A stretch of DNA of 64,000 bases from assembly GCA_020746105.1 (NCBI GenBank), contig JAJGST010000077.1, positions 58,010-122,009 of the forward strand, written 5' to 3'. Made by a program: the position numbers and the translations under genes. This document shows, one piece after another, positions 15,776 through 60,700 of this stretch (position 1 is its first letter; every line of letters begins with the position of its first letter). This DNA is from Trogon surrucura. Lineage: Eukaryota; Chordata; Aves; Trogoniformes; Trogonidae. The notes beneath the pieces are model-generated. The model was given only the letters and a program-made list of their open reading frames with translations. It was not told the DNA's origin and made no database searches.

Positions 15776-16845
15776 TCGTAATGACTCTGGGAGGCAGCTT
15801 CTCCCATCCTAGCGGCCCTGAGACATTGCTTCCCACTGGATGCTGTTTCCCCTGTCAGCTCGTCTGGCCCCGGCCGTGTCTCTCAGGAGGCCTGGCGGCT
15901 GGGCAAGGGCCCTGCCCTGAGCCATCCCTCTGCACACTCACCAACGGGAGCTCTTCACTCGTGTGAAATCCCTCTCCGGGACATTTCCCAGCCCCGGCAT
16001 CCCGCAGCCTTGCCGCATCCCTGCCTTCAGCCCGGCTCGGCCCAGCAGAGCAGCCGTGCTGGGACTGGTGCCACGGCGGGAAGCGGAGGCCGGTGAGAAT
16101 GTCCCTGCGGCCGGAGAATCCCCAGCCCAGGCTGTCTGCAGCCCCCGCTGCCGCACTCGCTGCCCGGGACGGGCCGAGGGAACTGGCCCCGGGGCTGGTG
16201 GCGCAGCTCCTGCTGCCCCAGGGACAGGGCAGCCTGCCCCGAGCTGGCACCCGCGGCAGCGGCTTCTCTTGCCGCGCCTCCCCGTGGGGCACACACGCGG
16301 TGCCCGGCTCTGCTGCCAGGACATCCCCTCTGCCCACAGAGCCTGGCCCCAAGGGCAGCGGGAGAGGGGAGAGAGAGGGGAGGGAGAGGGGGTCTGAGGA
16401 CTGTGCAGAAATATCGGAGGGGTGGGTGTCAGGAGGAAGGGGCCGGTCTCTTTTCGGGGGTGCCCAGTGACAGGACAAGGAGGAACGGGGATCAGCTGGA
16501 ACACGGGCAGTGCCACCTCCAGAGGAGGGGGTAAAGCTTTGCTGGGCGGGTGCCGGAGCCCTGGCCCAGGCTGCCCAGGGAGGGTGCGGAGGCTCCTGCT
16601 CGGGAGACTTTCCAGCCCGCCGGGACGCGTCCCTGTGCGCTCTGCTGTAGGTGACCCTGCTCGGGCAGGGGCGGGACTGGGTGAGCTCCGGAGGCGCCTT
16701 CCAGCCCCCGACATTCTCTGACTCGGGGGTTCGATGCTTCTGTGGGTTTATGCCTTTACTCGCCCACCGGGGCCACCGGGGATGCGGGAGTTTCTATCAG
16801 GCACCGCGCAGGGCAGCCCGGTTGCCAGGGCAGCGGGGGCCTTCC
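15776..16845. other. unassigned GC-rich DNA
   Basis: About 1 kb with many CpGs and long open frames on both strands but no recognisable domain, splice-consistent exon set or repeat. Confidence 0.4.
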
Positions 16846-16849
16846 TGCT

Positions 16850-17062
16850 GGTGTGCCCAGTGCTCCCAGTACAGCTTCCTGGCTCCCCCCAGTGCTCCCA
16901 GTTCCTCCCTCTGGCTCCCCCCCAGTGCTCCCAGTGCCTCCCCAGTGATACTAGTTCCTCCCTTGAGCTCCCCCCAGCGCTCCCAGTACCTCCCCAGTGC
17001 TCCCAGTTCCTCCCTATGACTTCCTCCAGTGCTCCCAGTGCCTCCCCAGTGCTCCCAGTTCA
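16850..17062. repeat. second block of the C-rich minisatellite
   Basis: Same CAGTGCTCCCAGTGCCTCCC type units as 346-2125. On its right it stops directly inside minus-strand CR1 ORF2 sequence. Confidence 0.9.
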
Positions 17063-18910
17063 CAGAATCACACTTCCCCTTGGTGAAGCCATGTTGACTG
17101 TCTCTAATGACCCTCTTATCCTTGATATGCCTTGAGATGGCACCAAGGATAAGTTGTTCCATCACTTTCCCAGGGATGGAGGTGAGGCTGACCGGTCTAT
17201 AGTTTCCAGGGTCCTCCTTCTTGCCCTTTTTGAAGACTGGACTGACATTAACTTCCCTCCAGTTCTCAGGCACCTCTCCCATCTCCCAAGACTTGGTGAA
17301 GATGATGGAGAGTGGTCTAGCAATGACATCAGCCAGCTCCCTCAGCACCCGTGGATGCATCCCGTCTGGACCCATGGATTTATGGATGTCCAGATTCCTT
17401 AACTGGTCCCTAACCCAGTCCTCATCGACTAAAGCAAACTCCTCCACTGCCCTGACTTCCTCTGGGGCCTCAGGGGAACGGGGCTCCTCAGGACAGCCTC
17501 CGGCAGAGTAGACAGAGACAAAGAAGGCATTCAGCAACTCTGCCTTCTCTGTATCTTCTGTCACCAAGGCACCCACCCCATTCATCTGTGGGCCTACACT
17601 GCCTCTGGTGTTAGTTTTATCTGCCACGTATTTGAAAAAGCTCTTCCTGTTGTCCTTGACCCCTCTCGCCAGGTTTAATTCTAGGGAGGCCTTTGCTTTC
17701 CTAGTTGCCTCCCTACATCCTCGGACAACAGTCTTATATTCTTCCCAAGTGGCCAGCCCTGCCTTCCAAGATCTGTAAATTCTCCTCTTGCCCTTGAGCT
17801 TACCCAGCAGATCCCTGTTTAGCCACGCAGGTCTCCTGGCTCCGTTCCTTGACTTCCTACGTGTCGGGATGCTCTGATCTTGAGCACGGTAGAAGCAGTC
17901 CCTGAACGCTAACCGACTATCCTGGGCCCCTTTACCTTCAAACAGCCTTGCCCATGGGATTTTCTCGAGTAATTGCTTGAAAAATCCAAAGTTTGCCTTG
18001 GCAAAGTCCAGGGTTGCAATTCTGCTTGCTATTTTGTTTCTGCTACATGAGATCCTGAACTCCACCATTTCATGGTCACTGCAGCCAAGGCAGCCCTCAA
18101 CCTTTACTGCTTCAGCCAGATCCTCCTTGTTAGTGAGGATGAGGTCCAGCAGTGCTCCTCTCCTAGTCGGCTCCTCCACCATTTGCAACAGAAAATTATC
18201 ATCGATGCACTGGAGGAACCTCCTGGACTGTGGCTGGCTGGCTGAGTTGTCCTTCCAGCAAACATCAGGGAAGTTAAAATCCCCCACGACAACCAGGGCC
18301 TGTGATTGTGAGACCGCTCTCAGCTGCCTGTAGAAGGCCTCATCAACTTCCTCACCCTGATCTGGTGGCCTCTAATAGACACCCACAACAGTATCTCTCC
18401 TGCCAGCCTGCCCCTTAATTCTGACCCATACACTCTCAACTTGCTCCTCATCCATGCCTGGATGGTGTTCAAGACATTGTAGTTGCTCTTTCACGTAAAG
18501 AGCGACTCCACCACCTCGCCTGGCTGGCCTGTCTTTCCTGAAAAGGACACAGCCACCCATGACCACATTCCAGTCATGCGAGCTGTCCCACCATGTCTCT
18601 GTAATTGCCACCAGATCATAATCTCCTGCCCGAACCCAGGTGTCCAGCTCCTCCTGCTTATTCCCCATGCTGCGTGCATTGGTGTACAAGCATTTCAGGG
18701 AGCAAGCTGAGCACACTGATCTCACCCTAGGGGGATGGGAGGCCACCCGGTCCTCATAATTTCTAGAGCACTGCCCCGCTGCAATCCCAGTTATAACCCC
18801 ATCAGTAGAGGGAGATAAAGTCCCTGTGGTGTACGAAAGGAATTTGTTGGGGAAGACTGTCTGGGTATTTCCTGCTTCAGGCAAAAGCAAACCCATTTGT
18901 GGGGTTGCTT
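17063..18910 (-). mobile_element. CR1 LINE, endonuclease and first half of reverse transcriptase
   Basis: Minus-strand ORF2 from an APE-type endonuclease (NARSMGNKQEELD, AITETWWDSSHDWNV, GDFNFPDVCW) through the linker to the RT start ([30 protein letters not shown]). One in-frame TAG near 18372 interrupts the endonuclease; otherwise 496 codons are open. The 3' part is cut off by the minisatellite, whose sequence then continues the same frame. Confidence 0.9.
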
Positions 18911-18998
18911 TCACAGAATCACAGAATCACAGAATGTTAGAGGTTGGAAGGGACCTTAAAGATCATCTAGTCCAACCCCCCTGCCAGAGCAGGATCAC

Positions 18999-21780
18999 CT
19001 ACAGCAGAGCGCACAGGAACGCGTCCAGGCGGGTTTTGAATGTCCCAAGAGAAGGAGATTCCACAACCTCCCTGGGCAGCCTGTTCCAGTGCTCGGTCAC
19101 CCTCACAGTAAAAAAGTTTTTCCTCATATTTTTATGGAACCTCCTGTGTTCCAGCTTCCACCCATTGCCCCTTGTCTTGTCAGTGGACGCCGCTGAAAAG
19201 ATCCTGGCTCCATCTTCCTGACATTCCCCCTTGACATATTTATAAACATGAATGAGGTCACCCCTCAGCCTCCTCTTCTCCAAGCTAAAGAGACCCAGCT
19301 CCTTCAGCCTTTCCTCATAAGGGAGATGCTCCACTCCCTTCACCATCTTTGTGGCTCTACGTTGGACTCTCTCAAGCAGCTCCCTGTCCTTCTTGAGCTG
19401 AGGGGCCCAGAACTGGACACAATATTCCAGATGTGGCCTCACCAGGGCAGGGTAGAGGGGCAGGAGGACCTCTCTTAACCTACTTGCTACTCCCCTTCTA
19501 ATACACCCCAGGATGCCATTGGCCTTCTTGGCCACGAGGGCACACTGCTGGCTCATGATCATCCTGCTGTCCACTAGAACCCCCAGGTCCCTTTCCCCTG
19601 CGCTACTCTCCAGCAGGGCAGTCCCCAACCTATATTGGCACATGGGGTTATTTTTTCCCAAGTGCAAAACTCTACACTTGCCCTTATTAAACTTCATCAG
19701 ATTTCTCCCCGCCCAGCCCTCCAGCCTGTCTAGGTCTCTCTGAATGGCTGCACAGCCTTCTGGTGTGTCAACCACTCCTCCCAGTTTCGTATCATCAGCA
19801 AACTTGCTGACAACATTCTCTAATCCCTCATCCAGATCATTGATGAATATATTAAACAGCACCAGCCCAAGCTCTGACCCCTGAGGGACCCCACTAGACA
19901 CAGGCATCCAGCCAGACTCAGCCCCATTGACCACAACCCTCTGGCTTCTTCCCTTCAACCAGTTCTCGACCCACCTCACTACTTGCTCATCCAGACCACA
20001 CTTCCTCAGTTTACCTATGAGGATGCTGTGGGAGACGGTGTCAAAAGCCTTACTGATGTCCAGGTAGACCACGTCCACTGCATGGCCACCATTCATCCAC
20101 CTGGTTATGTCTTCGTAAAAGGCTATCAGGTTGGTCAAACATGACTTCCCCTTGGCAAAGCCATGCTGACTGCTCCTAATAACCTTCTTATCCTTGATAT
20201 GCCCAGAGACAGCGTCAAGGGTAAGATGTTCCATCACCTTTCCAGGGATGGAGGTGAGGCTGACCGGTCTGTAGTTACTCGGGTCATCCTTCCTGCCCTT
20301 CTTATAGACTGGAGTGACATTTGCTTTCCTCCAGTCTTCAGGCACCTCACCTGTTACCCATGACTTACCAAAGATGATGGAGAGTGGCCTAGCAATGACT
20401 CCTGCCAGCTCCCTCAGCACCCGTGGGTGCATCCCATCAGGGCCCGTGGATTTATGAATGTTCAAGTGTTCAAACTGATCCTTAACCCACTCCTCATCAA
20501 TCAGGGCAGACTCCTCCTTTGTCATGACTTCCTCTGGGGCCTCAGGGGACTGAGGCTCCTGAGGACGGTCTCCAACAGTGTAGACAGAGGCAAAGAAGGC
20601 ATTCAGTAACTCTGCCTTCTTTCTGTCCTCTGTCTCCGGGACACCCACCTCATTCAACAGAGGGCCTACATTGCCTCTAGTGTTAGTTTTGTCAGCAATG
20701 TATTTGAAGAAGCCCTTTCTGTTGTCTTTGACCTCCCTTGCAAGTTTTAACTCCAAGGAGGTCTTAGTTTTTCTGATTGCCTCCCTGCACTCCCTGACAG
20801 CTGCCCTGTACTCCACCCGAGTGACCAGCCCTTCCTTCCACAATTTATACACCCTCCCTTTCCACCTGAGTCTGCCCAGCAGATCCCTGGTTAACCAAGC
20901 AGGTCTCCTGGATCTCTTTCTTCATTTCCTACCTGATGGGATGCACTGATCCTGAGCCTCGAAGAAGTGGCCTTTGAATACCGACCAACTCTCTTGGGCC
21001 CCTTTACCTTCCAGCTCCCTGTCCCAAGGGGTTTCCCCTCGCAGTTGCTTGAAGAGGCCAAAGTTGGCCCTTCTGAAGCCCAGAGCTGTGATCCTGCTTG
21101 GCGTTCTGTTCCTACCGCACAGGATCCTGAACTCCACCATCTCATGGTCGCTGCAGCCAAGATTGCCCTCAACCTTCACTGCTTCAACCAGACCTTCCTT
21201 GCTGGTGAGCACAAGGTCCAGCAGCTCCTCTCCTGGTTGGCTCATCCACCATTTGCATCAAAAAGTTCTCATCGATGCACTGGAGGAACCTCCTGGACTG
21301 AGGATGGCTGGCTGTGTGGGACTTCCAGCAAACATCTGGCTAGTTGAAATCCCCCATGAGAACCAGGGCCTGGGACTGAGAGGCTGCTGTCATCTGCCTG
21401 TAAAAGACCTCATCAACTTCCTCCTCCTGATCAGGTGGTCTATAGTAGACACCCACCACAGTATCACCTAAGCTAGCCTGCCCCTTAATTCTTACCCATA
21501 AACTCTCTACTTGCTCCTCATCTGCCCCTGGATGGATCTCAATACACTCCAGTTGCTCCCTCACGTACAGAGCAACTCCCCCACCTCGCCTCATCAACCT
21601 GTCTTTCCTAAAAAGAACATAACCATCAAGGCCCACATTCCAGTTATGTGAGCTGTCCCACCACGTCTCTGTAATTGCAATAAGATCATAGTTCTCCAGC
21701 TGCACATAGACTTCTAATTCTCCCTGCTTATTCCCCATGCTTCTTGCATTGGTATACAGACACTTCAGAGATTTAATGGA
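18999..21780 (-). pseudogene. CR1 ORF2: endonuclease-reverse transcriptase, broken
   Basis: This encodes the APE endonuclease (AITETWWDSSHNWNV; GGGVALYVREQLE), a linker, the reverse transcriptase ([40 protein letters not shown] with FADD at the active site) and the C-terminal domain. The final 617 codons (20852-18999) are open, covering the whole RT. Upstream there is an in-frame TAG in the conserved GDFN-PDVCW box near 21340, and at least one frameshift and one stop between 21245 and 20850. The enzyme would perform target-primed reverse transcription if intact. Confidence 0.88.
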
Positions 21781-31237: not shown

Positions 31238-31959
31238 TTCTGAGGTACTTAACACCTGCTTTGCCTCAGTCTTTAGCAAAAAGACTGGCTATCCTCAGGG
31301 CAACTGGTCTTCTGAGTTGGTAGACAAGGATGGGGAGGCAGAATACCCCTCCTGTAATCCAGGAGGAAGTAGTTAGTGACCTGCTGTGCCACTAGATCCC
31401 AACAAGTCTAAGAGTCCTGGGGGGATTCATCCCAGGGTGCTGAGGGAGCTGGGGGAAGAACTGCCTAAGCCTCTTGCTATCATTTATCACCGATCCTGGC
31501 TAACCGGGGAGGTCCCAGGTGACTGGAGGTTGGCCCATGCAACACGCATCTATAAGAAGGGCCAGAAGGAGGGCACGGGGAACTGTAGGCCTGTCAGCCT
31601 GACCTCGGTGCTTGGCAAGGTTATGGAGCCAATTATCCTGAGTGCCACCAAGCGGCATGTAGAGGACAACCAGGGGATCAGGCCCAGCCATCACAGGTTT
31701 AGAAAAGGAAGGTCCTACCTGAGCAATCTCATCTCCTTCTCTGACTGTGTGACCCGCCTAGTGGATGAGGGGAAGGCTGTGGGTGTGGTCTACCTTGATT
31801 TCAGCAAGGCCTTTGACACAGCCTCCCACAGCATCGTCCTGGAAAAGCCGGCAGCCCACGGCTTGGATAGGTGCGCCCTCTGCTAGGTTAGAAACTGGCT
31901 GGATGACAAGGCCCAGAGAGTGGTGGTGAATGGCAGAGAAGGATCTGGGAGTACTGGTT
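31238..31959 (+). mobile_element. CR1 LINE, 5' part (split by the provirus)
   Basis: Plus-strand reverse transcriptase region with [27 protein letters not shown]-like CRPVSLTSVLGKVMEP and VVYLDFSKAFDTASHSI. It ends mid-sequence at the 5' LTR and resumes at 41636. It is a different CR1 subfamily from the minus-strand copies. Stops and frameshifts are present. Confidence 0.9.
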
Positions 31960-32464
31960 TGTTGCAAATAAAGTAGAATTAAAATTGTAGAAGTAGTTAA
32001 GTTAAGGCTTTGACTGGCCAGGTAGGCCTTATGAGAATAACAAGTCTTGGAAAACAAGAAGGAATGTACTGAGAAAGAAGGAACAATAATCAAAGGAATC
32101 AGTAGGGCATATAGGACAAACAGGACTAGCAGAAATAACAAACAGTTGCTTAGGGAACAGTTGCTTAGGGATTAGAAAGGTGTATAGTATAAACAAAGGG
32201 GTTCTGGTGATGGGAATCAGTTAACCATTATCCTTAGGTTAGACAAGCATGAAAATTTATAAGTTTGGGGATAATTATCAACTGTTTCTGTATGATGTAG
32301 AATTCTGTATGTAAGCCAAGTTGTAAAAGGTATAAAAATTAAACAGAAAATGAGGGTCTTTGGAATCCTGACTTTGGACGCTAGTCCGCAGGTTTCCCGG
32401 GCCCTGAATAAAGCACCGCATAAACTGACACTCTGTTGGTTTGTGTCTTTGTTTACGGGCAACA
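31960..32464 (+). repeat. 5' LTR, 505 bp
   Basis: Starts TGTTGCAAATAAAG and ends GGGCAACA, with TGTTGC/GCAACA inverted tips. A TATA box (TATAAAAA) is at 32331-32338 and AATAAA at 32407-32412, defining U3, R and U5. It drives proviral transcription on the plus strand. Confidence 0.95.
32331..32338 (+). promoter_or_regulatory. TATA box of the 5' LTR
   Basis: TATAAAAA about 70 bases before the AATAAA box, as expected for a compact retroviral U3/R. The same box in the 3' LTR is at 41502-41509. Confidence 0.8.
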
Positions 32465-32606: not shown

Positions 32607-32846
32607 CCGAAGGTGCTTTATTCTTTTAAGGTTGGGTGCCTGCCCATAAGACGAGGACTTATCTCGCAGGGTTGGGCAAAGGTTCTGGTATTGGGAAACC
32701 TAGGCGCTGGCCGTAAGACGCAGCGAAAGCCGCGCTGAGCCAGCACTTGCCACTTGCGGCGTCGAGAATAGGCAAGTTGGTTGGTATTAAGGTAAAAGGG
32801 TTATAGTATCGTAGTTTTACGAGTGTGTGTGTGTGTGAGTAGTATA

Positions 32847-34529
32847 ATGCCGTTTAAAATGTTTAGAGTTCTATCGTGCAATGAAATCGATATCCCTGAG
32901 GATTCTCCTCTTGGTTGTTTATTGAAACGTTGGAAAGATGGTAATTTTGGAAAGGAATTAAGAAAGAGAAATTTAATTGATTATTGTAATTATGTATGGC
33001 CTGAATATGAAACAGAAGGAATGCAGTGGCCACGAAACGGTACAGTGAATTCAGAAATTATAACCCCCTTAATGCAGTACTTACGGGAAAATGAAAAATG
33101 GGAAGAGGTGCCGTATCTTGACTTATTTTATTATTTAAAAGGGAAACCTGAGTGGCAGAAAGAATGTGGAATGATGGTATTGGGATCAATAGATAAGGAA
33201 TGTGCTGGTTGTAAGGAGCGGAAAGTCTGGTTCTCTGAACCGGAGGAGGATGTGTCTTTGTTAGTTTCCCCAAGCGCGCCGTCGGCCCCCGAAATACCAC
33301 CACCGAATGACCATAAGGTCACTATTCCTGTTACATCAGAAGAGGAAACGGAGTCTGAAGAATTGTTGACTGATAAGCCGAAAACGCCGCTTGCAGAGCG
33401 GACTCATAAAGGGAGGTTAGAACGGAAAAAGAGATTGCTACAACCTCAGTTGATGGCCCCGTTACGGGAGGCTGTGGGGGGAATTGGAGAAAGAATTTTA
33501 GTAAAGGTCCCATTTTCTCCGAGTGATCTGATGATTTGGAAGCAATCGGCAGGGGCATATAGAGAAAATCCGGAGAAGGTGGCTCAGGTAATAAAAATGG
33601 TGATAAAAGCACAAAATCCAGATTGGAATGATTTACAGGTGTTATTAGATACCATAATGGATTCCACTGAAAAGGAGATGGTGTTTAAGGCTATGACAGA
33701 TCGTGCGCGAGAAATGGTTAGGATGCGGGTTATTAAAGGTGATACTATTAATGATTTGGTGCCCAGAGAAGATCCCGAGTGGGATCCCAACTCCGGGGAG
33801 GGGTATCGTAGACTGAAAGCGTACCAAGAATTATTGATAGATGGGATACGCGAAGGGATTCCGAAAACATTGAATTGGTCTAAATTGTATTTGGTAAGAC
33901 AAGACAAAGGGGAGTCACCATCGGCGTTTTTAGAGAGACTGAAGGAGACGGCTCGGAGATATACGGATTTGGATGTGGAAGCTGAGTCAGGCAAATTACA
34001 ATTGGCATTGATTTTTATGGGACAATCTCAGGAGGACATTAGGAAAAAGCTGCAGAAGTTAGAAGGGGAAGATACAAGGAACTTGGAGAAATTATTAGAA
34101 GTGGCCTGGAAAGTATATAATAGTAGGGAAAAGGAATCGGTAAAGAAACAGCAAGCGATTATGCTGGCGGTCCTGCAACAGGCTTCTCAAGTAAATAATA
34201 GAGGAAGGGACCGGGGGAGAGGAAGAGGTAATGAACGAGGAAGAAACTTCGGGTTTGGGGGTTTTGGAAATCAAGTCCCGGGAGGTCGGGAAAAGTTGGG
34301 ACCTAATCAATGCGCGCTGTGTAAGGGCCAGGGACACTGGAAAAGGGAGTGCCCACTTAATTTGGGGATGGGAACACCAGTGGGTGGTAACATAGGTGGA
34401 AATGCATTAGGAAATGGGATGAATTTGGACGGAGGGATGAATTCTGGTAACGGAATGAACCCTTTTGTAGGAGGACCACAAGGTGTCGCTCAAGCTTTTA
34501 TGATGAGAAATTATCAGAATCAGAGCTGA
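32847..34529 (+). CDS. gag: Gag polyprotein, gammaretrovirus-like (intact)
   Basis: 560 codons from ATG at 32847 to TGA at 34527-34529. An upstream GTG run is in frame, but the ATG is the first normal start. Features in order: a matrix region without Gly2, so the usual N-myristoylation signal is missing; PSAPSAPEIPPP near residue 140, a P(S/T)AP late-domain type motif; a capsid region with ESPSAFLERLKETARRYT, fitting the gammaretroviral p30 family; one zinc knuckle CALCKGQGHWKREC (C-X2-C-X4-H-X4-C, about residues 489-502); and a Gly/Asn/Met-rich end. The single knuckle and the same-frame pro-pol after a stop both point to gammaretrovirus-type organisation. Confidence 0.92.
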   Translation: MPFKMFRVLSCNEIDIPEDSPLGCLLKRWKDGNFGKELRKRNLIDYCNYVWPEYETEGMQWPRNGTVNSEIITPLMQYLRENEKWEEVPYLDLFYYLKGKPEWQKECGMMVLGSIDKECAGCKERKVWFSEPEEDVSLLVSPSAPSAPEIPPPNDHKVTIPVTSEEETESEELLTDKPKTPLAERTHKGRLERKKRLLQPQLMAPLREAVGGIGERILVKVPFSPSDLMIWKQSAGAYRENPEKVAQVIKMVIKAQNPDWNDLQVLLDTIMDSTEKEMVFKAMTDRAREMVRMRVIKGDTINDLVPREDPEWDPNSGEGYRRLKAYQELLIDGIREGIPKTLNWSKLYLVRQDKGESPSAFLERLKETARRYTDLDVEAESGKLQLALIFMGQSQEDIRKKLQKLEGEDTRNLEKLLEVAWKVYNSREKESVKKQQAIMLAVLQQASQVNNRGRDRGRGRGNERGRNFGFGGFGNQVPGGREKLGPNQCALCKGQGHWKRECPLNLGMGTPVGGNIGGNALGNGMNLDGGMNSGNGMNPFVGGPQGVAQAFMMRNYQNQS

Positions 34530-34533
34530 CTAG
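34527..34533 (+). promoter_or_regulatory. stop-readthrough context at the gag/pro junction
   Basis: The gag stop is TGA followed by CTAG. UGA-CUA-G is an established leaky stop context in viral and some cellular genes. Pro continues in the same frame, so readthrough rather than frameshifting would make Gag-Pro-Pol. Confidence 0.75.
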
Positions 34534-37500
34534 ACCAAGATTTAAAGGTTATTTTGGAAATAGGGGGGGAACCGATGGAATTTAGGGTAGATACCGGGGC
34601 AAGTTTTTCGGCAATGAATAAACAAATGGGACCTGAAGAGGGTCCTGTCGGAGAGCCGGTCAAGACAACAACAAATCCCACCCATATGGCTACAAGTAGT
34701 TCTCCCTTTATTGCTCCGGACAGCTCAAGATATACAGTTCAGCAGTGTCCCCGCGCCTGCCCCTTCCCCAAGTTGGTCAGTTACAGGTTTACACGCACCA
34801 GCGTTTTATTGGGTAGTGCCATTCCACTATGCCAGCGGCTATCACCCCCCCTTCTGCCCCTGGGGCCAGCACCTCCCCCCAAGCATCTCGCAAAGCTCTC
34901 ACAAAACAGATAAAACCTCCTCCTCCCTGTGTTCCAAGGCAGCTTCAAGGACAGGGCCTCTGTTTAGGCCTAAGCTGGGTTGTCCACGTCCTTAAAGTAA
35001 TACCGCGCCTCTGCTCCGCAAGAAATTCCTCTACAGGGACCTCTGAGTGATTCTACAGTGCTTGTTGTTGGGGTAACTGGGGAAGTAGAGGAAAGGACAT
35101 TCCTGCGGCCACTCGATATAAAATTTGGGGGAAAGGAGTTTGACCATCAGTTTTTATATATGTCAAGCAGTCCAGAGTGTCTACTGGGAAGAGATTTACT
35201 CTCAGCATTACAAGCACAAATCATATTTGAAAAAGGAAGAGTAAAATTAGAAATACCGGAGGAAAATTTAGCGAAAATCTTTATGGTTAGGGAGGTGGAG
35301 AAGGAGGAAATACCACCAGAGATTGAGCAGGCTGTAGTACCATGGGTGTGGGAAACAGGAGCACCAGGGAAATCGAAGGCAGCAGTACCTGCGATAGTGG
35401 AATTAAAAGAGGGGGCCCGACCGGTAAGGATACGTCAGTATCCTATTAAGCTGGAAGCCCGGAAAGGAATAGCCCCTATGATAACTCAGTATATGGTATT
35501 AGGAATTTTGCAGGAATGTGAATCCGAGTTCAATACTCCAATTTTCCCAGTTAGAAAACCCAACAGTAAATACAGACTAGTACAGGATTTACGAGCAGTA
35601 AATTCCATTGCCAAAGATATACACCCAGTAGTAGCCAATCCATATACTTTGTTAACATCTGTGTCTGAGAAATTTCAGTGGTTTACAGTAATTGATTTGA
35701 AAGATGCTTTCTTCTGCATCCCTCTGGCACCTGAGAGCAGATATATTTTTGCATTTGAATGGGAAAATCCGGAAACTGGACGTAAGCGCCAACTCACCTG
35801 GACCAGGTTACCTCAAGGATTTAAGAACTCACCTACAATTTTCGGAAATCAGCTGGCCAAGGAGCTCGAAGAATGGAAAACTACCCAGGTAAAGGACTCA
35901 CCTTTTTCCTATGTTGTGTTGCAGTATGTAGATGATATTTTCCTGGGTGCTACGAATCGAAATCTCTGCCAACAATTGACTATTGAATTATTGAATATGT
36001 TGGGACAGGCTGGATACCGGGTATCCAAAGAAAAAGCACAGTTAGTAAAACAAAAGGTCATCTATTTGGGATGTGAAATTTCGCAAGGGGTTCGCCGATT
36101 GGGAGCCAATCGCGTCCAAGCAATATGCGCAATCCCCATGCCCCGCAATCACCAAGAATTAAGATCCTTTCTAGGGATGGTCGGTTGGTGTCGCTTGTGG
36201 ATTTCAAACTTTGGATTGATGGCCAGACCACTTTATGAAGCAACAAAAGAGTCTGTATTTAGATGGGGAAAGGTGCAGGAAAAGGCATTCCAGGAATTGA
36301 AAAGGGCACTCAAGGAGGCACCTGCTTTGGGTTTGCCGGATTTGAATAAGGACTTTCAACTATATGTAAATGAAAGACAGAGACTGGCCCTGGGTGTGCT
36401 TACCCAAAAGCTGGGATCCTGGAAGAGGCCTATGGGATATTTCTCCAAACAGTTGGATACGGTAAGCGGAGGATGGCCGGGATGTTTGAGGGCAGTGGCG
36501 GCCACAGTACTCTTGATTCAGGAAGCCCGTAAGCTAACGTTGGGAAGACACATAACAGTCTTTGTACCCCACATGGTTATAGCAGTATTGGAACAAAAAG
36601 GGGGGCATTGGCTCTCATCAAGCAGAATGCTCCAATACCAGGCCCAGTTAAGGGAACAGGATGATGTGGAATTGAAAGTAACTAACCATCTCAACCCAGC
36701 GGAGTTTTTAAGGTCCACACAGGAAGAAGGAGAATTAGAACATGATTGCATGGAAGTGATTGAGCAGGTGTATGCCAGCCGGAAGGACCTGAAGGACGTA
36801 CCCCTACCAGATCCGGACTGGGAGCTGTTTACGGATGGATCCAGCTTCGTGGAAAATGGTACCAGGTATGCGGGATATGCAGTGGTCACATTACAGCAAA
36901 TAGTAGAAGCAAAAGCGCTACCCCCAGGCACATCGGCACAAAAGGCCGAGATCTGGGCTCTAATAAGAGCCCTAATCCTGAGCCAAGGAAAGAAAGTCAA
37001 TATTTGGACAGACTCTAAATATGCTTTTGGAGTAGTGCATGTGCATGGGGCTCTGTGGAAAGAGAGGGGGCTTCTCAATGCGCAAGGATCGACGGTTAAA
37101 CACAAAACTGAAGTTAGTTTACTACTGGAAGTTATCTACAAACCATTAGCAGTGGCAGTAATGCATGTTAAAGGACACCAAAATGATCCAGGAAAAGAAT
37201 TTCAAGGGAATCGGCGAGCTGATCAGGTTGCCAGACAAGTGGCAAGAGAGGTATGGACTCAAATGGCACTAATACCAGTTCGAGATCAACCGGCTGCTGC
37301 ATATATGGATGAGAAACCACACTACTCACCGGAAGATGAAAAACTGGCTCAAATGTTACAGGCAAGGAAGAACATCAAAGGCTGGTATGTAACTCCGGTG
37401 GGACAAGTAATATTGCCGGTAAGAATTATGAAAGCAATACTAGAATCAGAACACAACAAATGTCATTGGGGTGCAGAAGCAATGGTGAAATTCCTGAAAA

Positions 37501-38460
37501 ATGACATATTCTCAAACCAGATGTTAACATTAGCGAAGAGAATAAATGCTATGTGTCCGGTATGTATTAAAAACAATCCAGTAATTAGGAAACAGATTCA
37601 GATGGGCAAGCTGCAAGTAGGGCCTCAACCGGGAGATTACTGGCAGATTGATTTTTCTGAGCTACCAAAAGCCCAAATGTATAAATATCTTCTGGTGTAC
37701 GTGTGTACGTTTTCAGGATGGCCTGAGGCCTTCCCTTGTAGAACTAATCAAGCTAAAGAGGTGGTGAAAACACTTCTGAAAGAGATCATCCCCAGATTCG
37801 GGGTTCCGTTAGGGATATCATCAGATAGGGGCCCACATTTTACAGCAGGAATTGTCCAACAAGTTTCAGTAGTATTAGGGATAACCTGGAATTTGCATAC
37901 TCCTTGGAGACCACAATCAAGCGGGCAAGTGGAAAGGATGAATCAGACTCTAAAGGGTCAAATTAAGAAAATCTGCCAAGAGGCAAAAAATTCAGTGGCC
38001 GCAGGCATTGCCGTTAGCTCTACTAAGAATTAGAATTAAACCAAGGGAAAGGTTAGGAGTAAGCCCGTATGAGATCCTATACGGCAAACCCTACCATGCA
38101 GCTACTTATAAGGGAGACCCCCATCTGGTAGGAGACCAGATGATACTAAATTATGTGTTATCTCTAAATAAGACTCTTACAGCTATTAGAGGAGCACTAC
38201 AGTGGAATCGACCTCTATCACTGGATAATCCAGTCCACGACATACTTCCGGGAGACCAAGTTTATGTAAGGAACTGGTCAGTGGAACCCCTGAAAGAAAC
38301 ATGGGACGGTCCTCACCAGGTGATCATGACCACCTATACGGCTGTCAAGGTCGGCGGGATAGACAACTGGATTCATTACACCAGAGTCAAGAAAGTTCCT
38401 ACGCAATGGTCGGTAGAAACTTTATCTCCTACACGAATGGTATTCAGAAGCAAAAATTAG
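34530..38460 (+). pseudogene. pol: Pro-Pol: protease, reverse transcriptase, RNase H, integrase (broken)
   Basis: In the gag frame after the UGA. The protease active-site box VDTGAS lies at about 34589-34606, and the second half, including LLGRDLL (about 35184-35204), follows an interruption with in-frame TAA at 34911 and 34998. From 35058 the frame is open to 38033. RT has LPQGF and YVDD (35925-35936). RNase H has FTDGSS, IWTDSKYA and VKGHQ. Integrase has an HHCC zinc part (HNKCHWG, CPVC) and DDE residues at WQIDF (37650), SSDRGPH (about 37824) and GQVERMNQ (about 37932). At an A6 run, 37985-37990, the frame shifts: the integrase C-terminus continues in another frame from about 37990 to 38460. 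As it stands the provirus could not make complete protease or integrase. Confidence 0.9.
34645..35025 (+). other. C-rich insertion within pro
   Basis: About 380 bases unlike the A-rich provirus around them, with runs such as TCACCCCCCCTTCTGCCCCT. They separate the two halves of the protease and contain stops in the pol frame. The origin is not recognised and the edges are approximate. Confidence 0.65.
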
Positions 38461-41078
38461 GAGTAATGGTTCTCTTTCATCTGTTGGCATTGGTAGAAAC
38501 TCATGTAAAAGTTAATGTGTCTGAACCGTATCTGTTAGTACCTGAAACTACTGATGTTAACTTGACTTGTTTGTTTACTGATGACCAGGGAGCTGGATTT
38601 GAGGAAATTAATGCGAGATGGAGGTGGATCACGGGAGATGAATTAATCACAAAAGGAATCGAAACCATCTGGGATGTGACACGTCAGGAAGGGAAAACTA
38701 CCCTGCAGATACCCAAAGTGTCAAAAGACAACGAAGGAAAATACACCTGTGTGATCTGGATACGGTATAGTGTTGATTATGGGGATATGAATCTATACGT
38801 TACTAACACTTCACAGAAAGAGGAGACTAGGGATGCAATTCAGATAATCCCAGCAAACAAGAGGGTGGAAATGTGGGATGGCCCCCCGTTGAAAATAAAT
38901 TGTACCTTTAAATTTGGAACACAGTGCAGTCAAAAGGTCCAAGTGAAGTGGTGGAAGTTCAATGCCAGTCAGCAAATGTGGGACCCACAAACAGCAGGGG
39001 TAAGCTGGAGGTCAAATAAGTTGGGAGGTAAAGGATGGTTAAATATAACAAATCCCAGGGTTGGGAGGACAGAAGGGAAATATTTGTGCATTGTTATTTG
39101 TGGAGCTAGCGGAAACTATGGGATTAGAAACGTAGAGTCGGTACCCCATCAGCATCAGGGAATAAGGCCAGAACATGGAATATATCCGGCAGTGGAAGGA
39201 AAAGACGTGATTCTAAATTGTCTTGTACGAAATTTAAGTTATTTGGATTACGGGTGGTGGTACAAGGGAAAGAATTTAGAAACAGGAGGAAAATACCGAA
39301 TTGAAAATAGGTTCCAATCGATAGTCTTGATCATTAAAAAGGTGAGCAGGGAAATTGATATAGGACGATATTGGTGCTGGATAGCCCGGGATGATTGGTG
39401 GGTTAATGGAATGGCGACGGTGTATATAAAGAAGAAAAGAGTGGTTCGACAGGCTATCGAAGAGGGTAAACTAGCTAAAGTCGGGAGTCAAGAAAATTTA
39501 ATAGTAGGATTAATTAGAGATTTTGGACAAATTCAGAATGCCACAACCATTACAGCATGTTTACCTATGCCGCATGCAGCAGGTGATCCCATACCCTGGG
39601 GAATTATACCAGTTCTCGAAATGCCCAAAATGTTACAGAATGTTTCCTGGAATTGTAAGTTTGTCACTACCGCAACTTATGAATGGGTAAATGTTTGTAT
39701 ATTGATTAGCAAAACAAAAATAACTAAGAAACAGAGTGAGCAAAAACCAGGATATTATGGATGGATTGAAGACCCGAAAATTAAAGGAAATTGTTTAATT
39801 CGAGACAGTGTAGTGCACCCTCGAGGCCCTGATTTATGTAGTAAAATGAGAACTCGGGAAAAACAAGAGAAGCGAGAGGAAGTGTGCCAAAATATCACCA
39901 ATTCTACAACGATGAAACAATGGCAAACAATCTGGGGACCAAGCCTGTTAGAAACATATAGTTATATTGGACCAGTACATTGGTGTATACATTGGAAGGG
40001 AAAGAAGAATCAAACTTATTCACAGATGTATAAGGAAAGTAGTGAATGGAGAAAAGAGACACAGCTAATAGGGGATTGGAATTGTACACAAATTTACACT
40101 TGTGACACTCCTGATGAACATATTGGTTTAATGCCGGTTCGAATGCTATTGCAATTGGGTTGTGAGTGTAGAGGTTATAATCATTCCATCAGAGAAAGTT
40201 TAAAGCAAGTTGATTGCAAAACAGCCACAGTAAGGAGTCCAGGAAATCTGGTATGGGTAATGGGACATGGACACTGGACCACACATATGGCTGTCGATGG
40301 GCCAGCTACTCAGATTACCTTGGGAGTCCCAACACTTTGTCCATTCTGGAAATATTCAAAACTCACCACAAAGGAAATGCAGGGAAGGCAAAAACGGGAT
40401 ATTGGTGATGATATCGACGACATAGGATTAGGAAATGACGAGTGGCACGAACCATCTTCAGGGGTTAAGTTTGGGTGGGTATTAGAATCTATATTTGCAC
40501 AGGTATCAACATATCGGAATCGGGAAATGTTGTTTAAATTATTGGGACAAACTGAAAGGCTTGCAGCAGTAACTAAGAAGGGATTTAGGGATTTGAATCT
40601 ACAACTACAAGCAACCACTAGAATGACAATACAAAATCGAATGGCCTTGGACCTGATGTTATTAAAGGAACATGGAGTTTGTGGGTACCTGCATGGTAGA
40701 ATTGATCATTGTTGTGTGCACATCCCAAACGTTACTCAAGAAGTTGAAAAGGACGTTAGCCAATTGGAACAAATCGAAGGGAAAGTCCACGAAATTCAGA
40801 AGGAAGCAGAACACAATTGGATAGGAGAAATATTCAGCTCCCTGGGAATTCGAGTTTCTGGTTGGATATCATCTATTGTGCAATATGGAATCATGATTGT
40901 TGTGATTATCATTGCTGCCTTGATTACGTATAAGTGTCTTTTAGGAATGATCATGAGAGAAGGACAACATACTCGGAGAGTCATGAAGGCGATGACGCGC
41001 AGAGAAGTGATATTCCCGCAGAACCACCTGCAACCCCATCCAGACAACCCACCCGCTTATCAAGAGACGACAACCTAA
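38406..41078 (+). CDS. env: Env glycoprotein with three N-terminal Ig-like domains (intact frame)
   Basis: 890 codons from ATG 38406, overlapping the end of integrase; a second ATG at 38466 is possible. Both keep a hydrophobic signal-like stretch VMVLFHLLALV. Three Ig-like domains follow, each with a Cys pair and the D/E-x-G-x-Y-x-C hallmark: Cys55-Cys115 (DNEGKYTC), Cys166-Cys228 (TEGKYLC), Cys272-Cys324 (DIGRYWC). Then come about 320 residues of Cys-rich, glycosylated surface subunit, the cleavage site GRQKR (Arg664) and the transmembrane subunit: QNRMALDLMLLKEHGVC in the immunosuppressive-domain position, C-X9-CC (Cys759, Cys769-770), a membrane segment at about 823-845 and a tail with PPAY (882-885). 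The Ig part explains why it is much longer than usual retroviral envelopes. The third domain resembles CD300/pIgR-type V-set domains by eye. Confidence 0.9.
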   Translation: MVGRNFISYTNGIQKQKLGVMVLFHLLALVETHVKVNVSEPYLLVPETTDVNLTCLFTDDQGAGFEEINARWRWITGDELITKGIETIWDVTRQEGKTTLQIPKVSKDNEGKYTCVIWIRYSVDYGDMNLYVTNTSQKEETRDAIQIIPANKRVEMWDGPPLKINCTFKFGTQCSQKVQVKWWKFNASQQMWDPQTAGVSWRSNKLGGKGWLNITNPRVGRTEGKYLCIVICGASGNYGIRNVESVPHQHQGIRPEHGIYPAVEGKDVILNCLVRNLSYLDYGWWYKGKNLETGGKYRIENRFQSIVLIIKKVSREIDIGRYWCWIARDDWWVNGMATVYIKKKRVVRQAIEEGKLAKVGSQENLIVGLIRDFGQIQNATTITACLPMPHAAGDPIPWGIIPVLEMPKMLQNVSWNCKFVTTATYEWVNVCILISKTKITKKQSEQKPGYYGWIEDPKIKGNCLIRDSVVHPRGPDLCSKMRTREKQEKREEVCQNITNSTTMKQWQTIWGPSLLETYSYIGPVHWCIHWKGKKNQTYSQMYKESSEWRKETQLIGDWNCTQIYTCDTPDEHIGLMPVRMLLQLGCECRGYNHSIRESLKQVDCKTATVRSPGNLVWVMGHGHWTTHMAVDGPATQITLGVPTLCPFWKYSKLTTKEMQGRQKRDIGDDIDDIGLGNDEWHEPSSGVKFGWVLESIFAQVSTYRNREMLFKLLGQTERLAAVTKKGFRDLNLQLQATTRMTIQNRMALDLMLLKEHGVCGYLHGRIDHCCVHIPNVTQEVEKDVSQLEQIEGKVHEIQKEAEHNWIGEIFSSLGIRVSGWISSIVQYGIMIVVIIIAALITYKCLLGMIMREGQHTRRVMKAMTRREVIFPQNHLQPHPDNPPAYQETTT

Positions 41079-41130: not shown

Positions 41131-41635
41131 TGTTGCAAATAAAGTAGAATTAAAATTGTAGAAGTAGTTAGGTTAAGGCTTTGACTGGCCAGGTAGGCCT
41201 TATGAGAATAACAAGTCCTGGGAAACAAGAAGGAATGTACTGAGAAAGAAGGAACAATAATCAAAGGAATCAGTAGGGCATATAGGACAAACAGAACTAG
41301 CAGAAATAACAAACAGTTACTTAGGGAACAGTTGCTTAGGGATAAGAAAGGTGTATAGTATAAACAAAGGGGTTCTGGTGATGGGAATCAGTTAACCATT
41401 ATCCTTAGGTTAGACAAGCATGAAAATTTATAAGTTTGGGGATAATTATCAATTGTTTCTGTATGATGTAGAATTCTGTATGTAAGCCAAGTTGTAAAAG
41501 GTATAAAAATTAAACAGAAAATGAGGGTCTTTGGAATCCTGACTTTGGAGGCTAGTCCGCAGGTTTCCCGGGCCCTGAATAAAGCACCGCATAAAATGAC
41601 ACTCTGTTGGTTTGTGTCTTTGTTTACGGGCAACA
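41131..41635 (+). repeat. 3' LTR, 505 bp
   Basis: Same length as the 5' LTR with nine substitutions and no indels. AATAAA at 41578-41583 would direct polyadenylation. It is followed by the duplicated target GGTT. Confidence 0.95.
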
Positions 41636-42280
41636 GGTTGGCAACCAGTTGATCATGAGCCAGCAGTGTGCCCAGGTGGCTCTGAAGGCCAATGGCATCC
41701 TGGCTTGTATCAGGAATGGTGTGGCCAGCAGGAGCAGGGATGCAGTTCTCCCCCTGTACTCAGCACTGGGGAGGCCTCACCTCGAGTGCTGTGTCCAGTT
41801 CTGGGCCCCTCACTGCAAGAAAGGTATTGAGGTGCTGGAGCGGGTCCAGAGGAGAGCAACGAGGCCATTGAAGGGACTAGAGGGAAAGTCCTATGAGGAG
41901 AGGCTGAGGGAGCTGGCGTTGTTTAGTCTGGAGGAGACTCAGGGAGGACCTTATCACTCTCTACAACTACCTGGAGGGAAGTTGTAGTCAGGCGGGGGAT
42001 GGGCTCTTCTCCCGGGTGACTAGTGGCAGGATGAGAGGGCATGGCCTGAAACTGCATCAGGGAAGGTTTAGGTTGGATCTCAGGAAGCTCTTCCTCACGG
42101 AGAGGGTGATCAGGCATTGGGATGCACTGCCCAGGGAAGTGGTGGAGCCACCGACTCTGGAGGTGTTTAAGGAAAGACTGGATGTGGCACCTAGTGCCAT
42201 GCCATGGTCTAGCCATCGGCTGGACTTGATGATCTCAGAGGTCTTTTCCAGCCTCAGTAATTCTGTGATTCTGTGATTGT
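41636..42280 (+). mobile_element. CR1 LINE, 3' part after the provirus
   Basis: Continues the CR1 of 31238-31959: GATCATGAGCCAGCAGTGTG, then the ORF2 C-terminus ([23 protein letters not shown]) and a 3' UTR ending in ATTCTGTG octamers at 42260-42277. Removing the provirus and one GGTT restores continuity. Confidence 0.93.
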
Positions 42281-57700: not shown

Positions 57701-60700
57701 AGATTTAGGGATCTTTAAGGCCCAGAAACACCCAATTAGGGAACTTTGGGACTCAGAAGCAGCGATTTAGGGAACTATTGGGCTCAGAAGCACCAGTTTA
57801 GGGATCTTTAAGGCCCAGAGAAACTAAATCAGGGTACTTTTAGGTCCAGAAACACCAACTTAGGGAACACTGGGAATCAGAAGCAGCGAATTAGGGAACT
57901 TTGGGGCTCAGAAGCAGCGAATTAGGGAACTTTGGGGCTCAGAAACACCAATTTAGGGAATTTTGGGGCTCAGAAACACCAAATTAGGGAACTTTAAGTC
58001 TCAGAAACCACAATTTACGGAACTTTTGTGCTCAGGAACACCAATTTAGGGAACTTTAGGGCTCAGGAACACCAACTTAGGGAACTCTTGGGCTCAGAAA
58101 GAGTGATTTAGGGAACTTTGGGTCTCAGAAAGGCCGATTTAGGGATCTTTTATGCCCAAAAAAACTAAATGAGGGAACTTTCAGTCCCAGAAACACCAAA
58201 TTAGGGAACTGTGGGGCTCAGGAATAGTGATGTAGAGAACTTTTAGGCCCAGGAACACCTAATTAGGGAACTTTGGGACTCAGAAGCAGCGATTTAGGGA
58301 ACTTTTAGGCCAAGAAATACTAAATGAGGGAACTTTTGGGCTCAGAAGCACCAATTTCTGGATCTTTCAGTCCCTGAAACACCAAATTAGGGAACTTTGG
58401 GGCTCAGAAAGAGAGATTTAGAGAAGGTTTGGGCTCAGAAACAAAGATTTAGGGATCTTTAAGGCCCAGAAACACCAAATTAGGGAACTTTGGGGCTCAG
58501 GAATAGTGATTTAGAGAACTTTTAGGCCCAGGAACACCTAATTAGGGAACTTTGGGGCTCCGAAACAGTGATTTAGTGAACGTTTGGTCTCAGAAACACC
58601 GATTTAGGGAGATTTTGGGTTCAGGAACACCAACTTAGGGAACTCTTACGTTCAGAAAGAGTGATTTACGAAACTTTGGATCTCAGAAAGGCCGATTTAG
58701 GGATCTTTTATGCGCAGAAAAACTAAATGAGGGAACTTTCAGTCCCAGAAACACCAAATTAGGGAAATTTGGGGCTCAGAAAGAGAGATTTAGAGAAGGT
58801 TTGGGCTCAGAAACAAAGATTTAGGGATCTTTAAGGCCCAGGAACACCTAATTAGGGAACTTTGGGACTCAGAAGCAGCGATTTAGGGAACTATTGGGTT
58901 CAGAAGCGCCAGTTTAGGGATCTTTAAGGCCCAGAGAAACTAAATCAGGGTACTTTTAGGCCCAGAAACACCAACTTAGGGAACACTGGGAATCAGAAGC
59001 AGTGAATTTAGTAATTTTGGAGCTCAGAAGCAGCGAATTAGGGAACTTTGGGGCTCAGAAACACCAATTTAGGGAATTTTGGGGCTCAGAAACACCAAAT
59101 CAGGGAACTTTAAATCTCAGAAACCACAATTTACGGAACTTTTGTGCTCAGGAACACCAATTTAGGGAACTTTAGGGCTCAGGAACACCAACTTAGGGAA
59201 CTCTTGGGCTCAGAAAGAGTGATTTAGGGAACTTTGGGTCTCAGAAAGGCCGATTTAAGGATCTTTTATGCCCAGAAAAACTAAATGAGGGAACTTTCAG
59301 TCCCAGAAACACCAAATTAGGGAACTGTGGGGCTCAGGAATAGTGATGTAGAGAACTTTTAGGCCCAGGAACACCTAATTAGGGAACTTTGGGACTCAGA
59401 AGCAGCGATTTAGGGAACTTTTAGGCCAAGAAATACTAAATGAGGGAACTTTTGGGCTCAGAAGCACCAATTTCTGGATCTTTTAGGCCCAGAAATACTA
59501 AATGAGGGAACTTTTCGGCCCAGAAACACCATATTAGGGAACTTTGGGGCTCAGAAACAGAGATTTAGAGAAGGTTTGGGCTCAGAAACATCGATTTAGG
59601 GATCTTTTAGGCCCAGAAACACCAATTTAGGGAACTTTGGGACTCAGAAACACTGATTTAGGGAAATTTTGGGCTCAGAAACACGGATTTAGTGATCTTT
59701 TAGGCCCACAAACACCAAATAAAGGATCTTTGGGGCCCAGAAGCAATGATTTAGGGTACTTTTGGGCTGAAAAGCTCCAATTTAGGGATCTTTTAGGCCC
59801 AGAAAACAAAATTAGGGAACTTTTAGGCCCTGAAATACGATACTAGGGAAATTTGGGGCTCAGAAACTGATTTAGAGAACTTTTGGCTTCAGAAACACCA
59901 ATTTAGGGAACTTTGGGGCCCAAAAGCATGAATTTAGGGAACATTTAGGCTCAGAAACATCAAATTAGGGAACTTTGGGGCACAGAAACACCAATTTAGG
60001 GATCTTTAGGCCCAGAAACACCAAATTAGGGAACTTTGGGGCTCAGGAATAGTGATTTAGAGAACTTTTAGTCCCAGGAACACCTAATCAGGGAACTTTT
60101 GGGCTCAGAAGTAGCGATTTAGGGAACTTTGGCCTCTGAAACACCAATTTAGGGATCTTTTAGGCCCAGAAAAACTAAATGAGGGAACTTTTAGGCTCAG
60201 AAACACCGAATTAGGGAACTGTGGGGCTCAGGAATAGTGATTTAGAGAACTTTTAGGCCCAGGAACACCTAATTAGGGAACTTTGGGGCTCCGAAACAGT
60301 GATTCAGTGAACTTTTGGGCTCAGAAACACCAATTTAGGGAACTTTCAGTCCCAGAAACACCAAATTAGGGAACTGTGGGGCTCAGAAAGAGTGATTTAG
60401 GGAACTTTGGGTCTCAGAAAGGCCGATTTAGGGATCTTTTATGTCCAGAAAAACTAAATGAGGGAACTTTCAGTCCCAGAAACACCAAATTAGGGAGCTG
60501 TGGGGCTCAGGAATAGTGATTTAGAGAACTTTTAGGCCCAGGAACACCTAATTAGGGAACTTTGGGACTCAGAAGCAGCGATTTAGGGAACTTTTAGGCC
60601 AAGAAATACTAAATGAGGGAACTTTTGGGCTCAGAAGCACCAATTTCTGGATCTTTTAGGCCCAGAAATACTAAATGAGGGAACTTTTAGGTTCCGAAAC

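Follow-up and report, generated by a model that had tools for sequence, protein, structure and literature searches.

Three immunoglobulin-like domains at the front of an endogenous retroviral envelope of Trogon surrucura, and their stand-alone relatives in avipoxviruses

What is a block of three immunoglobulin-like (Ig) domains doing at the front of a retroviral envelope, and why do the closest relatives found for it outside such envelopes sit in poxviruses? The question is raised by a provirus in a 64,000-nucleotide stretch of the Trogon surrucura genome (assembly GCA_020746105.1, contig JAJGST010000077.1, forward strand positions 58,010 to 122,009; below, the window). We read the envelope protein (Env) of this provirus as bearing a cassette that holds from zero to three Ig domains in its relatives, is predicted to be released, likely acts as a decoy, and was probably taken over by avipoxviruses of the canarypox group; to these propositions jointly we give a probability of roughly 45%. 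The parts of the env gene are listed here, with residues numbered from 38301, which makes the methionine at 38406 residue 36.

38301..41078, plus strand: env open reading frame (ORF), 925 amino acids, no internal stop
38463..38498, plus strand: presumed signal-peptide core, about residues 55-66, a hydrophobic stretch picked out by sequence, without a predictor
38496..38816, plus strand: Ig domain 1 (D1), Cys 90-150, from the AlphaFold2 model, Pfam and sequence matches
38832..39155, plus strand: Ig domain 2 (D2), Cys 201, 209, 263 and 267, from the AlphaFold2 model; four cysteines kept in 14/14 rows checked
39156..39440, plus strand: Ig domain 3 (D3), Cys 307-359, from the AlphaFold2 model, Pfam and sequence matches
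39438..39449, plus strand: furin-type site RVVR, residues 380-383, between D3 and the start of the surface subunit (the pre-SU site), from a motif scan
39450..40397, plus strand: surface subunit (SU), with the conserved start ENLxVGLIRDF at residue 398 and RQKR at its end
40398..41075, plus strand: transmembrane subunit (TM), with CX9CC at residues 794-805

The Ig block is real, as its Pfam matches, its cysteine pairs and a model with three sandwiches attest. Scanned whole, Env exceeds the curated cut-offs of the Pfam models ig, Ig_3, I-set and Ig_2; scanned alone, D1 exceeds those of ig, Ig_2 and I-set, D3 narrowly exceeds those of ig and I-set, and D2 matches nothing in Pfam. An AlphaFold2 model of the block, built with 21 relatives, has a mean predicted local distance difference test (pLDDT) score of 90.4, and its predicted strands form three beta sandwiches, one of them D2, which holds a second cysteine pair (209, 267). 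Among the best 50 of 1997 fold matches in the PDB, the block resembles multi-Ig proteins or antibody parts. An earlier note, made from the DNA letters alone, had proposed three Ig-like domains and a furin-type SU/TM site in one uninterrupted retroviral env frame, and had named structure prediction and a profile search as checks; both bear the proposal out. The SU/TM site is RQKR at residues 696-699, and the cysteine pairs that it counted from the methionine (55-115, 166-228 and 272-324) fall on residues 90-150, 201-263 and 307-359, every one a cysteine. The D/E-x-G-x-Y-x-C motif ascribed to all three domains holds for D3 but not for D1 or D2, which have N and T, respectively, in the first place.

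Ahead of SU the residues RVVR form another furin-type site, which the note had overlooked although its marked interval ends exactly there. We counted RxxR or [KR]x[KR]R within the last 50 residues ahead of the SU start as furin-like and scored 23 of 44 proteins (that of the window and P0001 to P0043), the other 21 being without the SU start motif. Such a motif is present in 21 of the 23 envelopes, window Env included, and in a mean of 16% of control windows from the same envelopes. Two relatives free of Ig domains, P0030 and P0031, have RMKR at this position, and the pre-SU site is therefore independent of the Ig block. In a model of the full Env, weak overall (mean pLDDT 62.9), residues 380-410 and 412-433 score below 50, which puts the pre-SU site in a flexible part. 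The eight cysteines of the Ig block are kept in all 14 rows that have letters there (30 aligned), and since all eight can pair among themselves, no disulphide to SU is predicted. From the site and the even cysteine count, we predict that cleavage separates the Ig block from SU and leaves it a free, self-contained protein.

How widely is this layout shared? A search with full-length Env matched ten proteins among the best 7992 candidates scored, eight of which bear bird names (Pipra, Manacus, Zosterops, Serinus, Catharus, Myiozetetes, Acridotheres and Aphelocoma), all passerines as we interpret the names, with 46-63% identity across the aligned part. Three-Ig relatives occur in several passerines at 46-61% identity. 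These envelopes of endogenous retroviruses (ERVs), among them Pipra filicauda LOC120324666, Serinus canaria LOC127060434 and Zosterops HGM15179_009267, have the same order as window Env, namely leader, one to three Ig domains, pre-SU site, SU and TM, and differ from it in that the number of Ig domains varies; the databases name them uncharacterized, hypothetical or Ig-like protein. SU-TM alone found 36 proteins, many of them partial gene models; parrot, cuckoo, pigeon and falcon are among their sources. Three Ig domains are present in Pipra, P0002, Serinus, Aphelocoma and Zosterops (its start cut), two in Prinia and Melospiza, one in P0008, P0024, Catharus and Strigops, and none in P0030 and P0031. 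Scans of IMG/VR with the Ig block, SU-TM and one pox protein gave no relative. Two further proteins, P0003 (Manacus isoform X3) and P0007 (Myiozetetes isoform X1), miss most of D2-D3 up to the furin site, a gap that could come from an intron drawn by the gene model or from splicing to a one-Ig form.

In a midpoint-rooted SU-TM tree the one-Ig pair of Catharus and P0008 groups with the three-Ig Zosterops (support 96/94), which fits a loss of D2-D3 there. With its row excluded from the D1 profile, the single domain of a parrot envelope is nearest D1 by hhalign (96.6% for D1, 86% for D2, 2% for D3), which suggests that the env lineage had D1 ahead of the three-Ig form and fits a later arrival of D2-D3. 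Profile comparisons among the domains (D1-D2 91%, D1-D3 95% and D2-D3 26% probability) do not separate an internal duplication of D1 from separate capture, fitting both alike.

Outside retroviral envelopes the block turned up in DNA viruses. A search with the Ig block, limited to proteins of similar length sharing exact words, returned seven proteins: four from avipoxviruses, one Env fragment from a mousebird (Colius), and two unnamed fragments with Env sequence. The avipox Ig-like domain proteins are the closest relatives found outside retroviral envelopes. Identity to the Ig block is 50% for SWPV1-183 of shearwaterpox, 48% for crowpox CRPV-108 and 46% for a mudlarkpox protein, each covering 96-98% of the block with all three domains, and 41% for SWPV2-074, over two domains. 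The three-domain pox proteins end no more than a few residues from the end of D3, just ahead of where the furin site lies, and have no SU and no TM. In the structure database BFVD, SWPV1-183 is the top match to the fold of the window's Ig block (template modelling score, TM-score, 0.87; 51% identity), and the remaining 49 rows among the matches listed reach at most 0.32. In a table in the accessible part of PMC5390406 the best hit for SWPV1-183 is CNPV081, and SWPV2-074 is matched with CNPV079; we would place CRPV-108 with CNPV081 by likeness. The resulting sets, CNPV081/SWPV1-183/CRPV-108 and CNPV079/SWPV2-074, thus share a three-Ig block (two-Ig in SWPV2-074) 41-50% identical to that of the window, with the CNPV members placed by that table and not by sequence. 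That paper, as far as it was accessible, lists the relatives of CNPV081 and CNPV079 without a source, and the stem 'retrovir' is absent from its main text. The pox proteins are stand-alone products of a DNA virus, whereas the window's block is part of an Env. Another shearwaterpox protein, SWPV1-144 (BFVD A0A1V0QGU4), matches the Ig block partially (34% identity over 122 columns, root-mean-square deviation 3.6) and is perhaps a further pox member of this Ig family.

In which direction did the block travel? In a tree of all three domains the four pox proteins cluster together (100/99) and join Pipra (93/92), with retroviral rows around them; in a D1 tree that includes the parrot they lie within a 13-row group (100/99) together with nine retroviral rows. 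A short match ahead of the signal peptide bears on the same point:

38430..38459, plus strand: env codons 44-53, within the overlap with pol, whose env-frame residues match the N-termini of the avipox proteins in permutation tests

None of 5000 joint permutations equalled the score of the pox N-termini, just ahead of their signal peptide, against env residues 44-53; protein by protein, 0, 0, 0 and 34 of 2000 shuffles were as good. The match scores 0.99 at offset 0 and is negative at all offsets from 1 to 15, taken on one side only. This anchored test used 15 retroviral rows, with P0029, P0030, P0031 and P0033 left out and rows without letters there dropped. Taking trees and leader together, we infer that transfer most likely ran from retrovirus to poxvirus.

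The earlier note had compared the protein with gamma-type envelopes, a likeness that finds little support here. Window Env is not a standard gamma-type Env: CXXC, looked for throughout it, is absent, and the TM motif is CX9CC, likewise in the relatives, in place of CX6CC. According to the accessible part of PMC9967133, CX6CC is typical of gamma-type TM, and alpharetroviral and filoviral Env also are without CXXC; what gamma-type and alpharetroviral Env have in common with window Env is the SU/TM furin site and a CXnCC motif in TM, and alpharetroviral SU further resembles it in being without CXXC. The differences from gamma-type Env are thus n = 9 instead of 6 and the additional N-terminal Ig block with its pre-SU site. 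With phmmer, TM matches S71 Env, murine leukaemia virus (MLV) p15, syncytin-1 and filovirus GP2 weakly (E 0.006-0.02), and the Pfam model TLV_coat is over its cut-off in the relatives P0029 and P0030 and not in window Env.

What might the Ig domains descend from, and what might they do? By sequence, D1 is nearest CD276 (B7-H3), followed by an insect DIP protein (DIP-alpha), titin, PD-L2 and JAM-A, and the D2 search gave nothing better than E 0.08. For D3, a special likeness to CD300 and pIgR had been suggested, but titin and CEACAM domains are nearer and pIgR is a weak profile match. Whole-block fold matches in the PDB are generic and tied, and point to no specific host parent. The capture of a host immunoglobulin-superfamily segment, also suggested, finds no support among the Ig-block matches, where no host protein outside retroviral Env appears (0/7, within similar-length proteins sharing exact words). 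We think it likely that the Ig block is a soluble decoy or modulator of a host surface receptor, because the module looks cleavable, is partly or wholly absent in relatives and is kept alone by poxviruses, and because D1 is closest to CD276, with PD-L2 and JAM-A lower, which are immune-synapse or junction proteins. Ig-bearing ERVs are already known: in CrocERV31 a three-Ig host gene, nectin3, was captured at the env position (PMC4299795, accessible part), as a three-Ig protein occupies that position here. There, according to the same part of that source, nectin3 stands where env would be, with about 76% identity to the host gene in one copy; the window's provirus, by contrast, retains env, and the Ig-block matches include no parent gene. 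In the literature as accessible to us (few subscription papers, no preprints, and sources seen in part) we found no Env keeping SU and TM with an Ig cassette in front, and nothing tying an Ig-bearing env to birds or avipoxviruses, including in PMC4229897, PMC10715236 and PMC12405802. The suggestion that no described avian virus has such a layout needs qualifying, since avipoxviruses encode the Ig block alone.

The explanation we favour would run as follows. A cassette of three Ig domains sits between the presumed signal peptide and the furin-type site of env; a furin-type cut at the pre-SU site would free it from SU as a self-contained protein; once free, it would serve as a soluble decoy for host surface proteins or modulate them; and canarypox-group avipoxviruses would have acquired it as a separate gene with an apparently secreted product. 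In its sharper form, that a retrovirus assembled within its own env an immune decoy of three Ig domains that can be released, and that a poxvirus took this decoy, excised near the furin boundary, we hold the idea tentatively, at a little short of even odds.

Several points weigh against this explanation. Cleavage and release of the Ig block, and its decoy role, are predictions from sequence and model; RVVR is a minimal furin motif, the scored pattern is loose, and the pre-SU motif is missing in P0024 and P0043. Among the one- and two-Ig forms are gene models and named isoforms that may owe their shape to predicted introns, and the parrot Ig domain falls under the Pfam cut-offs (best E 6e-4) and stands on a very long branch in the D1 tree. 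The pox-Pipra join in the three-domain tree is not starred, and the pox group itself is weak in the D1 tree (73/81). Rooting the D1 tree on the parrot domain was indecisive about direction: an approximately unbiased (AU) test did not reject a root that leaves the pox rows outside every retroviral D1 of passerines (p 0.40). The leader match covers ten residues, with the MAFFT alignment fixed during permutations, and SWPV1-183 is the weaker one (34/2000 shuffles). In a leader test with a hidden Markov model, whose profile included one unrelated row (P0041), the shuffles that did as well out of 2000 were 1 for crowpox, 26 for SWPV1-183, 28 for mudlarkpox and 142 for SWPV2-074; a match of SWPV2-074 further upstream is marginal (144/3000). 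Captured DNA might also extend to the final codons of pol.

Less likely in our view, though still plausible, is an outer cap: the Ig block would remain on the spike and bind or mask the part of SU that contacts the receptor, and the pre-SU cut would do no more than prime it, like a latch that opens on entry. Such a cap would suit the in-frame fusion of the block to an Env with SU and TM retained, the many predicted glycan sites (7 of the 15 sequons in Env lie inside the Ig block), and the flexibility of the pre-SU site in the full Env model. But the even cysteine count predicts no covalent tether, related envelopes manage without two or all three domains, and avipoxviruses carry the block without any SU. 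Rather less probable again is that retroviruses and avipoxviruses each captured the same host three-Ig gene, so that their likeness reflects shared host descent. The nectin3 capture in CrocERV31 (PMC4299795, accessible part) offers a precedent, the AU test leaves room for such a root, and the last pol codons, if themselves captured, would take away the force of the leader; yet the Ig-block search, within its limits of length and shared words, returned no host protein outside retroviral Env, the one-Ig parrot Env points to D1 as an older part of Env than D2-D3, and retroviral and pox forms also match each other ahead of the signal peptide. Passage of the block from an avipoxvirus into a retrovirus, which unrooted data permit, we regard as very improbable, given that the retroviral forms found are more diverse (from Pipra to Serinus, with Colius and the one-Ig parrot besides) and that the four pox proteins cluster as one in the three-domain tree, albeit weakly in the D1 tree. 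An artefact of assembly or gene model, or a chance cysteine pattern, can be dismissed, because a single uninterrupted ORF lies in a provirus with both long terminal repeats (LTRs) and a target duplication, and because the three-Ig block recurs in independent records of passerine envelopes from several bird species and is thus no single-copy artefact.

The canarypox-type 'Ig-like domain proteins', orphans so far, gain a likely origin, and two unrelated virus families with common bird hosts become linked; if transfer from retrovirus to avipoxvirus is true, a secreted, host-mimicking module has passed from virus to virus. The envelopes also display an architecture with an N-terminal slot for zero to three Ig domains, bounded by the signal peptide and the pre-SU furin-type site. 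Function becomes testable, as the avipox protein amounts to the module on its own.

The provirus around env is made up as follows.

31960..32464, plus strand: 5' LTR, 505 base pairs (bp), direct repeat, bounds from LTR-LTR comparison
32823..34529, plus strand: gag ORF with MLV-type capsid, listed start GTG, Pfam Gag_p30 E 4e-35
34530..35057, plus strand: protease region, interrupted by stops, three-frame reading as is
35058..38033, plus strand: pol ORF (reverse transcriptase, RNase H, integrase core; Pfam RVT_1, RNase_H, rve), frame broken at its end
38008..38460, plus strand: 3' end of pol in a different frame, Pfam MLVIN_C E 1.4e-14, overlapping the env start
41131..41635, plus strand: 3' LTR, 505 bp, direct repeat, bounds from LTR-LTR comparison

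A 4-bp target duplication is a criterion for a gammaretrovirus-like provirus, and this one has it (GGTT on each flank) along with a Gag_p30 capsid and an MLVIN_C integrase C-terminus; by all of these marks it is gammaretrovirus-like. Its two LTRs differ at 9/505 positions, so the insertion is young. Stops inside the protease region and a frame break near 38008-38033 make the provirus as read defective in pol, although its env is open.

Judged by eye from the flanks at 31600-31955 and 41640-41900, the provirus seems to lie inside an older element resembling a long interspersed nuclear element (LINE). About 1 kb beyond it begins a 31-bp satellite that fills the last third of the window (42702-63990, about 689 copies, 71% matches). 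On the minus strand at 16797-20852 are ORFs for a LINE-type endonuclease and reverse transcriptase (Exo_endo_phos, RVT_1), probably of the CR1 kind. A minisatellite with a 52-bp unit in about 33 copies occupies 349-2061, and a similar unit appears again at 16887-17061.

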